Below, one piece after another: positions 31,485-37,773 of a DNA stretch of 64,000 nt (positions are counted from its first letter, which is position 1; each line of letters begins with the position of its first letter). This stretch comes from an uncultured Alphaproteobacteria bacterium (GTDB lineage: Bacteria; Pseudomonadota; Alphaproteobacteria; Methylaequorales; Methylaequoraceae). A model generated the notes under the pieces. It saw nothing but the letters and a program-made list of their open reading frames with translations. It did no database searches and was not told the DNA's origin. Location: contig CACEWP010000001.1 in assembly GCA_902563305.1 (NCBI GenBank), forward strand, positions 271,886-335,885. Direction: 5' to 3'. The position numbers and the translations under genes are program-made.

Positions 31485-33605
31485 TTGAACAAAATTAAAG
31501 GATATAATAACTGGAAAGAACTTGCATCTAAGGAACTTAAAGATAAAAGTTTGAACGACCACTATTGGGAAACACCTGAAGGTATAAAAGTTAAACCTCT
31601 TTACACCGAGGAAGATCTCAAAAATCTCAATCACCAAATTGGTCTGCCAGGCCTTCCTCCATTCACGCGAGGACCAAGAGCCACAATGTATACAAATAGA
31701 CCGTGGACAATTAGACAATATGCTGGATTCTCTACTGCAGAGGAGTCAAATAGATTTTACAAAGAGGGACTTAAAAATGGAGTAATGGGCTTGTCTGTTG
31801 CTTTTGATTTGGCCACTCATAGAGGTTATGATTCAGATCATCCAAGAGTTGTTGCTGATGTAGGAAATGCAGGAGTTGCTATTGATTCTATTGAGGACAT
31901 GAACTTATTATTTGATGGTATACCCCTTGATCAAATGAGTGTTTCAATGACTATGAATGGAGCTGTAATACCTGTATTAGCCAGTTTTATTGCTTCAGGA
32001 GAGGAGCAGGGGTGTCCTAGAGAAAAACTAACCGGTACAATCCAGAATGACATTTTAAAAGAATTTATGGTAAGAAATACTTTTATCTTCCCTCCCAAAC
32101 CAAGTATGAGGATTGTTGCTGATATAATAGAATATACATCTAAGCACATGCCAAGATTCAATTCTATTTCTATAAGTGGATACCACATGCAAGAGGCAGG
32201 TGCTAATCAAGTTCAAGAACTAGCTTACACACTCGCGGATGGTAAAGAGTACATAAAATCAGCTTTAGAAAGAGGGCTTAATATAGACGAATTTGCACCT
32301 AGGCTCTCATTCTTCTGGTCAATAGGCATGAACTTCTTTATGGAAATTGCAAAAATGAGGGCGTCACGATATATGTGGGCAGAGATTGTCAAAGAATTTA
32401 AACCAAAAAATAACAAAAGTTTAGCTTTGAGAACACACTGCCAGACCTCTGGAGTTTCATTAATGGAACAGGATGCATACAATAATATTGTAAGAACAAC
32501 AATAGAAGCTATGGCTGCAATTATGGGTGGAACTCAATCTCTTCATACAAATAGTTTTGATGAAGCACTTGCATTACCCACAAATTTTTCAGCAAGAATA
32601 GCAAGGAATACACAATTAATTCTTTCTGAAGAAACTGGAATTTGTAATGTAATAGATCCTTTAGCGGGTTCATATTATGTTGAGAGCCTCACATCAAGTA
32701 TTGTTCAGGAATCAAAAAAATTAATTCAAGAAATAGATGAAGTTGGAGGAATGGTTAAAGCTATTGAAATGGGTATTCCTAAAATGAGAATCGAGGAAAG
32801 TTCAGCAAAAAGACAAGCGAGAATTGATTCTAATGAGGAAACAATTGTGGGAGTAAATAAATACAAACCAACTGAAAAACAAGAAATTAATATTCTTTCC
32901 ATTGATAACGAGGAGGTAAGAGAGAGACAAGTTTCAAGATTACAAAAGCTCAAAAAATCTCGTGATAACAAAAATGTTGAAAACTTTATTGAAAAAATTA
33001 AGAACGTTGCGGGTCAAAAAGGTAATCTATTAGAAGTTTGTATAGAAGCGTCTAAAAACAGATGTACAGTAGGAGAAATGACTTCAGCTATGGAGAGTGT
33101 TTTTGGAAGGCATAATTTATCTACAAAAACAATTTCAGGAGTTTATAAAAATTCTGTAAAAAATGACGGAAAGATAGATGTTATTGATAGAGAACTAGAT
33201 AAGTTCATCAAAAATAAGGGTAGGAGACCAAGAATGCTGGTAGTAAAAATGGGGCAAGATGGACATGACAGGGGAGCAAAATTAATAGCTACAGCATTTT
33301 CAGATTTAGGGTTCGATGTTGATATTGGACCACTCTTTCAAACTCCTGAAGAAGCAGCTAAACAAGCAGTTGAGAACGATGCTCATGTAATTGGTGTTTC
33401 AACACTTGCTGCCGGTCACAAGACTTTAGTTCCACTATTAATGGAATCACTAAAGAATAATGAAGCAAATGAGATTAAGGTGATTTGTGGTGGAGTAATC
33501 CCTCCTGATGATTATCCCTTTTTGTATAAACTTGGCGTTGCCAAAGTCTTTGGTCCAGGAACTAATATTCAAGAAGCAGCAATTGAAATTATAAATTTAT
33601 TGTGA
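31485..33605 (+). CDS. methylmalonyl-CoA mutase (single-chain, with C-terminal B12-binding domain)
   Basis: [76 protein letters not shown] (DxHxxG). Confidence 0.97.
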
Positions 33606-33607
33606 TA

Positions 33608-33628
33608 TTTTAACCATCATGGTTAAAA
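33608..33628 (+). promoter_or_regulatory. Perfect 21-bp inverted repeat directly before the HTH-MeaB start codon
   Basis: TTTTAACCAT-C-ATGGTTAAAA (10+1+10); ATG of next gene begins at 33629. Confidence 0.65.
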
Positions 33629-34822
33629 ATGAAACTTAAGCATTATTTAAAACTTTTTAACATTTCCAAGATTGATTTTTCAAAAAAGATTGGGGTATCT
33701 AATGTTTCACTTTCTAGATATATAAGTGGAGAAAGGTTTCCTGAAAGAAAGGTTTTGAGTAAAATTTATCAAAGTACTAATGGTTTGGTTGATGCAAACG
33801 ATTTTTATCTTGAAGGAATCCCTAATTATGAATTGAATGATCAACAAAAAGCAGAGTTAAACAACATGATAAATAGTTTAAGAAAAGGAAAACTTAAATT
33901 TATTGCCAAAGCAATCACATTAATTGAATCTTCTTTAAAATTACATAAGCTTCAGGCTAGTTTTTTGTTATCAAAGTTAAAAGATAAAAATGATTCACTA
34001 AGAATTGGTATAACTGGCGTACCTGGAGTTGGGAAATCAACCTTTATAGAAACTTTCGGTATGACCTTAATTGATTTAGGTTACAAGGTTGCTGTTCTTG
34101 CTATTGATCCTTCATCGAAACGATCAGGTGGTTCAATATTAGGCGACAAAACTAGAATGATGAGATTATCTGTCAACAAGAATGCATATATTCGTCCTTC
34201 GCCAAGTCAGGGACATCTTGGAGGTGTAGCAAAAAAAACTCGAGATTCAATAAGGTGCTTAGAGGAAGCTGGTTACAATATTATATTTATAGAAACAATG
34301 GGAGTTGGTCAAGCAGAGACAACTGTGTATGATATGGTTGATATTTTTTTAGTTCTTCTTTTACCTTCCGGAGGAGATGAATTACAAGGTATTAAAAAAG
34401 GAATAATAGAAATAGCTGACCTAATAATAATAAATAAAGCTGATGGGAGTCTAAAAAGTACAGCTGAAATTACCATGTCGGAATATAAGAATGCTCAAAC
34501 AATGATTTCAAAAAGTAGAAAAGATATACTACCCCAGGTTTTTCAATGCTCTTCAACTGAAAATACAGGCATAAATAAAATTTTAAGCTTTGTAAAAAAA
34601 TTTGAAGAGACTAGAAAAAAAAGTGGATCATTCTATCAAACAAGGAGTGAGCAACAAATAAAAGCTCTTTGGAGTGACATAACTTTGGAAACTCAGGAAT
34701 TTATAGAAAATGATCTTAGATCAAAAGAATTTGTAAAAAAAATTATTAAAGATGTAGAAAAAAATAAATTTGATGTTAATAATGCTTCAAAGATAATCTT
34801 AGATTATATTGTAAAAAAGTAG
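33629..34822 (+). CDS. MeaB/ArgK-type G-protein chaperone of methylmalonyl-CoA mutase with N-terminal XRE-type HTH domain
   Basis: HTH: LKHYLKLFNISKIDFSKKIGVSNVSLSRYISGERFPERKVLSKIYQSTNGLVDANDFY; GTPase: RIGITGVPGVGKSTFIETFG, AIDPSSKRSGGSILGDKTRM. Confidence 0.93.
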   Translation: MKLKHYLKLFNISKIDFSKKIGVSNVSLSRYISGERFPERKVLSKIYQSTNGLVDANDFYLEGIPNYELNDQQKAELNNMINSLRKGKLKFIAKAITLIESSLKLHKLQASFLLSKLKDKNDSLRIGITGVPGVGKSTFIETFGMTLIDLGYKVAVLAIDPSSKRSGGSILGDKTRMMRLSVNKNAYIRPSPSQGHLGGVAKKTRDSIRCLEEAGYNIIFIETMGVGQAETTVYDMVDIFLVLLLPSGGDELQGIKKGIIEIADLIIINKADGSLKSTAEITMSEYKNAQTMISKSRKDILPQVFQCSSTENTGINKILSFVKKFEETRKKSGSFYQTRSEQQIKALWSDITLETQEFIENDLRSKEFVKKIIKDVEKNKFDVNNASKIILDYIVKK

Positions 34823-35146: not shown

Positions 35147-36802
35147 TTATCTTTTATCCTTTATTATTTCAGTTAAGTTATCAATTATAATCTCACCTAA
35201 CTTTTCAACATCGTCTATTGTAAATGCATTATTATAGTATTTTGACACATCATGTCCGATTCCAATAGCTATAAGATCAATTTTCTTTTTTTTTTCAATA
35301 TCAGCAACAGTTTCTTTAAGATGATTATCCAAAATGTTAGAGTTATTGCAAGAAAGCGTGGCATCATCTACAGGGGCACCATCAGATATAACAATTAAGA
35401 TCTTCTTTTTTTCAGTTCTTTTTCCTAATCTATTACTTGCCCAAATCAAAGCTTCGCCATCAATATTTTCTTTTAGAATTCCATCTTTGAGAACCAGACC
35501 TAAATTAAGTTTTGTTTGATTCCAAGGGGTATCTGCGTCCTTGTAGACTATGTGTAAAAGATCATTAAGCCTCCCAGGGTTAACAACTCTATTATTATCC
35601 CAAAGTTTTTTTGATTTGCCACCTTTCCATTCTTTGGTGGTAAAGCCAAGTATTTCAACATTAACTCGACATTTTTCAAGAGTTTTAGTAATTATCTCTG
35701 CTGTCATCGCTGAGGTTACAATTGGCTTTCCTCGCATTGAACCAGAGTTATCTAATAGAAGTGAAACTACTGTATTTTTTTCAGTATTTTCGTTTTTTAA
35801 CTTAAATATATTATAGGTTTTTGGATTTGCTATAAACTGAGAAAATCTTGAACTATCAAAAAATCCTTCGTCTTGATCAAATTTCCAAGTACTGTAATCA
35901 AGTGAGTAAAGAAGCTTTTCAAGTTTTTTAGCTAAACTATTTACGAGTTTTGTATTGTCTTTACATTCTTCATCAAATTTTTGTCTTAATTTTTTTAACT
36001 CAGCATGACTAATTAATCTTTCTGCTTTTGTAAAGATGTCGAATTTTTTTGTATAAACTTTATACTCTATATTATTTTGAGTTTTAGGCTCAGCGTTACA
36101 ATTTGCTTTGCCATTATCTGGTTTAAATTTTTCTTTTTTTTCATCTATTTGTTTAAAACTTATTTTCTTATTTTCTTCACTTTTTTTATTTTGTGGAGCT
36201 AGATTACTTTGCTCTTCTTTATCTTCATGTTCATTATCAAAAGATTTTTTACTTTCTGAATAAATGGAGGAAATTATTTTATTTGTATATATGTAAAACG
36301 CTTCCTCTTGATTAATTTTTTTAATGAGAGAATTTAGATGCTTCGTCTGTATTTTTGGAAAGATCTTCGAAATTTTTTTTATTTTAACAACTTTTGTTTG
36401 AAAAATATTTAGAAAAAAATCAAACAAAATATGCAATCTTTTATCATCATCATTAAAAAAACTTTGTTTAAAATCTGATAAGATTAAATTTATATTTTTT
36501 TTACAACCTTCAAAATGAGTAAAACCAAATGACAAGCATCTTGTGGCTGTAATGACTTTAAATATTTTTTTTTTCTCTTCTAATGATGGGCAATGTCGGT
36601 CATAAATACTGATATCTATATACCTTAGGTTAAGAGAAGCAATATCATACCACCCTCTACCTAAAAACTTTTCTGAAATTTCAAAACCATCAAAAAAGTT
36701 TGCCTTGCTAGATCTATTTGAAACAATAAGTTTTCTATCAGAAATTTTTTTTATTCTATTTCTTGATAATGTTTTAGCAGTCGTTTCATCTAAATTTTCC
36801 AT
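35147..36802 (-). CDS. cobT: cobaltochelatase subunit CobT
   Basis: VSLLLDNSGSMRGKPI VWA domain, acidic/charged middle region; next to cobS. Confidence 0.92.
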   Translation of the reverse strand: MENLDETTAKTLSRNRIKKISDRKLIVSNRSSKANFFDGFEISEKFLGRGWYDIASLNLRYIDISIYDRHCPSLEEKKKIFKVITATRCLSFGFTHFEGCKKNINLILSDFKQSFFNDDDKRLHILFDFFLNIFQTKVVKIKKISKIFPKIQTKHLNSLIKKINQEEAFYIYTNKIISSIYSESKKSFDNEHEDKEEQSNLAPQNKKSEENKKISFKQIDEKKEKFKPDNGKANCNAEPKTQNNIEYKVYTKKFDIFTKAERLISHAELKKLRQKFDEECKDNTKLVNSLAKKLEKLLYSLDYSTWKFDQDEGFFDSSRFSQFIANPKTYNIFKLKNENTEKNTVVSLLLDNSGSMRGKPIVTSAMTAEIITKTLEKCRVNVEILGFTTKEWKGGKSKKLWDNNRVVNPGRLNDLLHIVYKDADTPWNQTKLNLGLVLKDGILKENIDGEALIWASNRLGKRTEKKKILIVISDGAPVDDATLSCNNSNILDNHLKETVADIEKKKKIDLIAIGIGHDVSKYYNNAFTIDDVEKLGEIIIDNLTEIIKDKR

Positions 36803-36804
36803 TG

Positions 36805-37773
36805 TTATTCATGTCTTGAAATTAACTCTCGCCCAAAGCATCTTTGGTAGAACTCGTTAATAATATTTTTATCATTTAAATCACATTTATTAAAAAAAGA
36901 AAGTTTGAATGCCTGGTCTATATCTCCAAATATTTCAAAATTTTCTGCCCAAATAATACAGGTTCTAGGTGACATAATAACTGAAATTTCTGAAGCTTTA
37001 AATGCATCTCTCACTAAATTTGCAAGTCTAACCATTTTAGAGATTGAGGAATGAACTTTTTTACTACTTTTCTTTAACTTATTTTTAATAATTTTTTCCT
37101 CAATCTCAGGTTTTAAGAAATTTAAGGAACAAAAAATATTCCATCTATCGAGTTGACCTTGATTCAAATTTTGCGTGCCGTAGTAAAGACCTGAGGTATC
37201 TCCTAACCCAAGTGTATTACATGTCCCAAATATTCTGAAATATGGGTTTGGTGTAATAATCGTATTCTGATCTAAAAGAGTAAGTTTTCCGTCTGCTTCT
37301 AAAACTCTTTGAATTACAAACATTACATCTGGGCGCCCTGCATCATATTCATCAAATACCAATGCAACAGGGTTTTTAATTGCCCATGGGAGTAGCCCTT
37401 CTTTAAAGGTCGTTACTTGTTTATCATTTTTTAAAATAATTCCATCTTTACCAAGCAAGTCAAATCTACTAATGTGTCCGTCTAAATTTATACGAAGGCA
37501 TGGCCAATGTAATCTTGCAGCAATTTGTTCTATATGTGACGACTTCCCTGTTCCATGAAGTCCTTGAATCAGAACTTTTTTATTATATTTAAATCCCATC
37601 AATATAGATGTGGTAGTTGCGTCATCAAAAATATATCCATTATCAATTTCTGGAACCAAGTTAGTTTTTTCTGAAAAAGATGGAACCATAATCTTTTTTG
37701 ATGTACCAAAAACTTTTGATGAATCAACAAGTTTAGGTGTATCCAATGTTAAATTGTTATTTTCTAAAAGCAT
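36805..37773 (-). CDS. cobS: cobaltochelatase subunit CobS (AAA+)
   Basis: VLIQGLHGTGKSSHIEQIAARLHWPCLRINLDGHISRFDLLGKD. Confidence 0.95.
   Translation of the reverse strand: MLLENNNLTLDTPKLVDSSKVFGTSKKIMVPSFSEKTNLVPEIDNGYIFDDATTTSILMGFKYNKKVLIQGLHGTGKSSHIEQIAARLHWPCLRINLDGHISRFDLLGKDGIILKNDKQVTTFKEGLLPWAIKNPVALVFDEYDAGRPDVMFVIQRVLEADGKLTLLDQNTIITPNPYFRIFGTCNTLGLGDTSGLYYGTQNLNQGQLDRWNIFCSLNFLKPEIEEKIIKNKLKKSSKKVHSSISKMVRLANLVRDAFKASEISVIMSPRTCIIWAENFEIFGDIDQAFKLSFFNKCDLNDKNIINEFYQRCFGRELISRHE

Follow-up and report, generated by a model that had tools for sequence, protein, structure and literature searches.

What is a helix-turn-helix (HTH) domain doing at the N terminus of a MeaB chaperone, and which gene would it regulate? 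The question was raised by an open reading frame (ORF) at positions 33629 to 34822 (+) of the 64,000-nucleotide stretch of DNA that was analyzed (the window), which belongs to a genome of TMED127/Methylaequorales, an order of marine methylotrophs. An initial annotation had described a MeaB GTPase with an N-terminal XRE-type HTH, encoded directly after methylmalonyl-CoA mutase, and had suggested that it may regulate transcription, including perhaps that of its own operon. Taken as a whole, the explanation that we consider probable is that HTH-MeaB is both a functional chaperone for the adjoining mutase and a dedicated single-target transcription factor that would act at its own operator.

The fusion gene and its two domains

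The ORF is unbroken from ATG to TAG and encodes 397 residues. Pfam MeaB (PF03308) matched residues 92 to 350 with 312.7 bits (cutoff, 23.1), and both NCBIfam MeaB equivalogs scored above their cutoffs (NF006958, 401.7 [329]; TIGR00750, 285.6 [240.75]); the complete G-domain in one frame described initially was thus borne out. This domain (residues 87 to 350; 33887 to 34678, +) contains the P-loop GVPGVGKST, switch I residues D160, D173, and R176, switch II residue E222, switch III residues D250, Q253, and K256, and NKAD at 269 to 272, all of which were invariant in an alignment of 15 orthologs. The switch I to III residues are those of M. extorquens MeaB (D92, D105, R108, E154, D182, Q185, and K188) (PMC10481361) at a constant offset of +68. 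An AlphaFold2 model built from the 15-ortholog alignment consisted of a MeaB fold, a low-confidence linker (residues 61 to 70), and five N-terminal helices. The closest PDB match of the predicted MeaB part was 4jyb (MeaB with GMPPNP bound), and PDB MeaB matches spanned the MeaB part only. The C-terminal helical extension and stop (34679 to 34822, +) follow the G-domain in the model; in MeaB, this is the dimerization region (PMC9974510).

Upstream, the mutase gene (31485 to 33605, +) encodes a 706-residue methylmalonyl-CoA mutase (Mcm; NF006944, 1217 bits; Pfam MM_CoA_mutase and B12-binding), and a 23-bp gap between the two ORFs confirmed that the fusion gene follows it directly. From these sequence features, HTH-MeaB is likely a working MeaB-type GTPase chaperone with the adjoining mutase as its likely client; mutase-stimulated GTP hydrolysis and AdoCbl delivery, which are predicted, would fit with mcm being the adjoining gene in fusion loci.

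The first 60 residues (33629 to 33808, +) form a Cro/C1-type HTH domain. Pfam HTH_3 matched residues 3 to 46 with 25.8 bits in the whole protein and 28.2 bits with the N terminus alone (gathering cutoff, 23). Modeled in isolation with AlphaFold2, the domain folded into five helices (pLDDT, 90 to 96) resembling the DNA-binding repressors P22 c2, YdaS, and SinR (TM, 0.6 to 0.7; root mean square deviation, 0.8 to 2.1 Å; ∼50 to 60 residues), with E values that were weak because the chain is so short (∼60 residues). Domain scan and model therefore agree with the XRE-type HTH of the initial annotation. The recognition helix comprises residues 25 to 33, and a conserved SLSRYxxGxRxPE occupies residues 27 to 39. 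The linker and the beginning of the MeaB N-terminal extension (residues 61 to 86; 33809 to 33886, +), where conservation is slight, join the two domains.

Mean identity to 14 orthologs was 66% in the HTH (84% in residues 25 to 39) and 73% in the G-domain, as against 24% in the linker. In every pair with these orthologs, dS exceeded 1 for the HTH and the G-domain, so that silent sites are saturated, and dN of the HTH was 0.14 to 0.40, about the level of the G-domain, with the lowest values in the recognition helix. Such low dN despite saturated dS indicates that the HTH is under maintenance, its recognition helix most strongly. Residues 1 to 60 were conserved from the very start across orthologs, which, together with the low ratio of dN to dS, supports the first ATG as the translation start; a start downstream of the HTH, the possibility on which the annotation could have failed, is at odds with this conservation.

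Distribution of the fusion and of related HTH fusions

Of 32 genomes sampled from TMED127/Methylaequorales, 24, representing 10 of 12 genera, have the fusion, nearly always at full length. The order has been described as one family with 12 genera (PMC12542740), in agreement with the genus count of the sampled genomes; HIMB59/AEGEAN-169 was considered as the host order instead and found no support, a genome of the window's own genus being named as TMED127 in that study. A search of 386 sampled genomes of the class listed no fusion outside the order (∼380 other Alphaproteobacteria genomes); the matches outside the order, again among those listed, began at query residue 34 or later, and the one beginning at residue 34 reads through stops. 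Twenty MeaB frames from genomes that do not belong to the order were inspected by eye, and none was seen to have an HTH at the N terminus. When short peptide patterns were searched in a collection of 85,462 species, 15 loci matched from residue 1, all in marine alphaproteobacterial records, including TMED13 and AG-892-F10, the TMED127 reference genome (PMC12542740), which is in the same genus as the genome of the window; the remaining matches were without the HTH part. The architecture search suggested at the outset thus returned an uncommon fusion, confined to one order among the sampled genomes. No paper on a MeaB-HTH fusion was found in the literature library searched.

Loss of the fusion alone was considered for the fusion-less genomes and rejected: these are also without its mutase, except G031, in which the mutase reaches a contig edge. 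Genome G009 has two copies of the fusion gene (L023 and L031) on different contigs with identical upstream sequence, reflecting either assembly duplication or a real second copy.

A search with the HTH alone recovered relatives in other Alphaproteobacteria. In another alphaproteobacterial family, an XRE HTH is fused to aspartate carbamoyltransferase (PyrB; L141:526-1689, −, and L193 to L198), and this HTH-PyrB fusion has been retained across two genera (six genomes). All five genomes in which the 5' end could be read have TTACC-N5-GGTAA after TTGACA, between −35 and −10. HTH-PyrB resembles HTH-MeaB in having a similar HTH (with a SLSRYLSGxRIPK helix) and an ACC-N5-GGT palindrome in its own promoter; the enzymes differ, as do the positions of the palindromes, that of HTH-MeaB lying at the −10 and start codon.

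Other related HTHs are joined to a domain of the nitrate reductase delta subunit, from the NarJ/TorD-like family of cofactor insertion chaperones (L148:1492-2298, +), or to the catalytic domain of a glutamine synthetase (L150:1498-3066, +). Several stand-alone HTH relatives have a palindrome just upstream; these are single cases that may be due to chance.

A palindrome at the 5' end of the fusion gene

The 23-bp gap separating the mutase and chaperone genes contains a perfect palindrome, TTTTAACCATCATGGTTAAAA (33608 to 33628), with the core TTAACC-N5-GGTTAA at 33610 to 33626, which is the predicted operator. Its half-site centers are 11 bp apart, about one helix turn. The core or a close variant was present between mutase stop and chaperone start in 24 of 24 fusion genomes. 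Searches of all 32 genomes yielded 19 exact sites in 19 genomes, each directly 5' of the fusion gene; chance expectation from base composition is about 0.15 per genome, and a reversed control pattern occurred 0 to 2 times per genome. In the other five fusion genomes, the site is retained at this position with one or two bases changed, and a symmetric double change, ATAACC-N5-GGTTAT, characterizes genus g10. The inner arm bases CC/GG were invariant (24/24), while the inner spacer drifts; the spacer-edge positions vary as purine/pyrimidine (R/Y), independently on the two sides, with three A-C non-pairs.

A search of the window's genome and those of relatives, covering sites within one mismatch of the consensus, turned up no second intergenic site that recurs. 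All such sites elsewhere in the window's genome lie in coding sequence, and those that recur in relatives are intragenic. A regulon beyond the own gene was therefore rejected: in several species, the two recurrent sites are separated by ∼4.4 to 4.5 kb and fall within one giant adhesin-like ORF of up to >2000 codons (L165, L166, L167, and L168), and these copies are probably unrelated because they are coding. The fourth site in the window's genome was rejected as a target because it lies inside an MnmA-like ORF. With the exact motif only at the fusion gene and the one-mismatch sites of this genome coding, the regulon is predicted to consist of one site, that of the fusion gene itself. Further operators may escape at this genome's completeness of 78%, but relatives at 90 to 93% also have one exact site.

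At the level of sequence, these features lend good support to DNA binding by the fused HTH and to its regulation of the gene that encodes it, and the palindrome in the promoter of HTH-PyrB would be independent support for such autoregulation. Alternatively, another regulator, either a stand-alone XRE protein or CtrA, could bind the palindrome, the HTH of MeaB now being a protein interaction module. The genome does contain two further short frames with HTH_3-like matches, and TTAACCAT resembles a CtrA half-site, although a CtrA site was rejected on spacing and symmetry. However, a dedicated autoregulator would be expected to have just such an exact site, one per genome and at no gene other than the fusion; within the HTH, conservation peaks in the recognition helix, and symmetric N5 palindromes precede the HTH-PyrB fusion too. 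We regard binding by another regulator as quite unlikely.

The palindrome might instead act as an RNA hairpin that controls how the mcm-meaB transcript is translated or processed, independently of the HTH. Indeed, the folding energy of a hairpin at the start codon is −6 to −11 kcal/mol (z, ∼−2 to −5). Yet a hairpin would permit compensatory swaps, whereas the CC/GG arm bases are unchanged in all 24 genomes at saturated divergence, and the flanking R/Y position varies on each side without regard to pairing. Furthermore, the HTH-PyrB palindrome, which has the same geometry, is flanked by promoter hexamers and does not lie at the start codon. An HTH-independent hairpin is thus very unlikely, and a DNA operator bound by the fused HTH is the preferred reading.

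The palindrome core is overlapped by 2 bp by a promoter-like element, TTGAAA-17-TATTTT (33583 to 33611, +), the second hexamer of which comes right after the mutase stop; most orthologs have a similar TTGAAA-(15-17)-TATATT. The number of promoter-like hexamers was not above shuffle expectation and the −35 lies within mutase codons, so that the element is weak taken alone; as a promoter of HTH-meaB it is suggestive only, and repression is read from position only. Of the two genes, only that of the chaperone has the palindrome on its 5' side, the mutase gene having it downstream, and the prediction is thus that the chaperone gene, or read-through into it, is controlled rather than the mutase promoter; the mutase gene, upstream of the operator, is not an obvious target. 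Of the regulation of an own operon proposed initially, the own-gene part is therefore retained, given an order-wide, genome-unique palindrome at the 5' end, and the mutase promoter drops out as a predicted target.

It could also be that HTH-MeaB is an activator of the gene encoding it, or that it regulates distant genes through sites weaker than the consensus that was searched. In Rhodobacter, genes of the methylmalonyl-CoA pathway are activated by PccR, a ScfR regulator (PMC10370305), and the search covered sites with at most one mismatch, leaving room for weaker ones. Against activation, repressors typically bind where this palindrome is located, next to the promoter-like −10 and the start codon; against distant genes, no intergenic second site recurred. 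Activation or distant action is unlikely, and own-gene repression by HTH-MeaB is the reading developed below.

Known counterparts and a proposed mechanism

HTH-MeaB is like the MeaB/MMAA G3E GTPase chaperones in its G-domain, switch I/II/III residues, mutase neighbor, and scores above curated cutoffs and is unlike them in the additional 60-residue HTH and linker ahead of the MeaB part. A catalytic and a DNA-binding domain on one chain, both under selection, are the hallmark of trigger enzymes, and the best reading of the sequence is that HTH-MeaB belongs with this already-known class. PutA is likewise a metabolic protein that also represses transcription (PMC6978683). The folds of PutA and other trigger enzymes differ from that of HTH-MeaB, and PutA represses its catabolic operon. 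In Alphaproteobacteria, the methylmalonyl-CoA pathway is also linked to PccR, a transcription factor of the ScfR family that we take to be XRE-type. PccR, however, is separate from the chaperone and is an activator of pathway genes, and in the Pfam scan MeaB alone follows the HTH of HTH-MeaB, without ScfR C-terminal domains, which sets it apart from the ScfR/PccR family.

The closest parallel in logic may be BirA, a biotin ligase and repressor that represses at low client demand (PMC6391492). Both are cofactor-loading proteins that carry a DNA-binding domain at the N terminus and whose operator, here a predicted one, is a palindrome. The HTH and catalytic fold are unrelated, and no biotin ligase domain was found in the Pfam scan, so the analogy is functional only and not one of family. 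The ligand switch is BirA's and for HTH-MeaB is conjectured; BirA targets biotin synthesis, whereas the sole predicted target of HTH-MeaB is its own gene.

In the proposed mechanism, HTHs dimerized through the MeaB part would bind TTAACC-N5-GGTTAA between the mutase stop and their own start codon, and bound HTH-MeaB would repress initiation at its own promoter and/or block read-through from the mutase gene, matching the chaperone level to need. Both DNA binding itself and repression instead of activation are what we infer. MeaB alone is a resting dimer, in which a GTP analogue and the Cbl-binding domain of the mutase turn one protomer by ∼180 degrees (PMC9974510, PMC10481361). The resting dimer could place two N-terminal HTHs on the two half-sites, and recruitment by the mutase would alter their geometry. 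By BirA-like logic, an idle chaperone would repress its own gene and an engaged chaperone would not, with both the sign and the coupling conjectural. By analogy with the published MeaB structures, it is plausible that HTH-MeaB senses the mutase, B12, or GTP state, as the annotation had supposed. Release from DNA once the mutase engages the chaperone in its GTP state is a possible step, on which we would not insist.

A bolder and still more tentative version would have mutase cofactor maturation sensed directly: apo- or damaged mutase and GTP would drive the 180-degree rearrangement, pulling the HTHs off the operator, so that demand for B12 or mutase is read as transcription. The related XRE modules on PyrB, a NarJ/TorD-type chaperone, and glutamine synthetase would then represent a self-regulation plug-in in Alphaproteobacteria, streamlined ones included. 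HTH-MeaB offers a ready test of whether the large rearrangement of the MeaB dimer can be read as transcription, with the predicted operator providing a defined target of 17 to 21 bp, and HTH-MeaB and HTH-PyrB suggest a general route by which small genomes may build regulation into enzymes.

Further genes were noted. CobT- and CobS-like cobaltochelatase genes (35147 to 37773, −) converge on the HTH-meaB/L28 pair, a gene arrangement that most relatives share; they scored under the NCBIfam equivalog cutoffs (391.9 of 759 and 438.4 of 558.6). A second MeaB, of 299 residues and without an HTH (L002:1432-2331, +), adjoins a glyS-like gene. A second AdoCbl mutase of 659 residues (L183:988-2967, −) adjoins a crotonyl-CoA reductase (Ccr)-like gene and, from that position, is likely an ethylmalonyl-CoA mutase.
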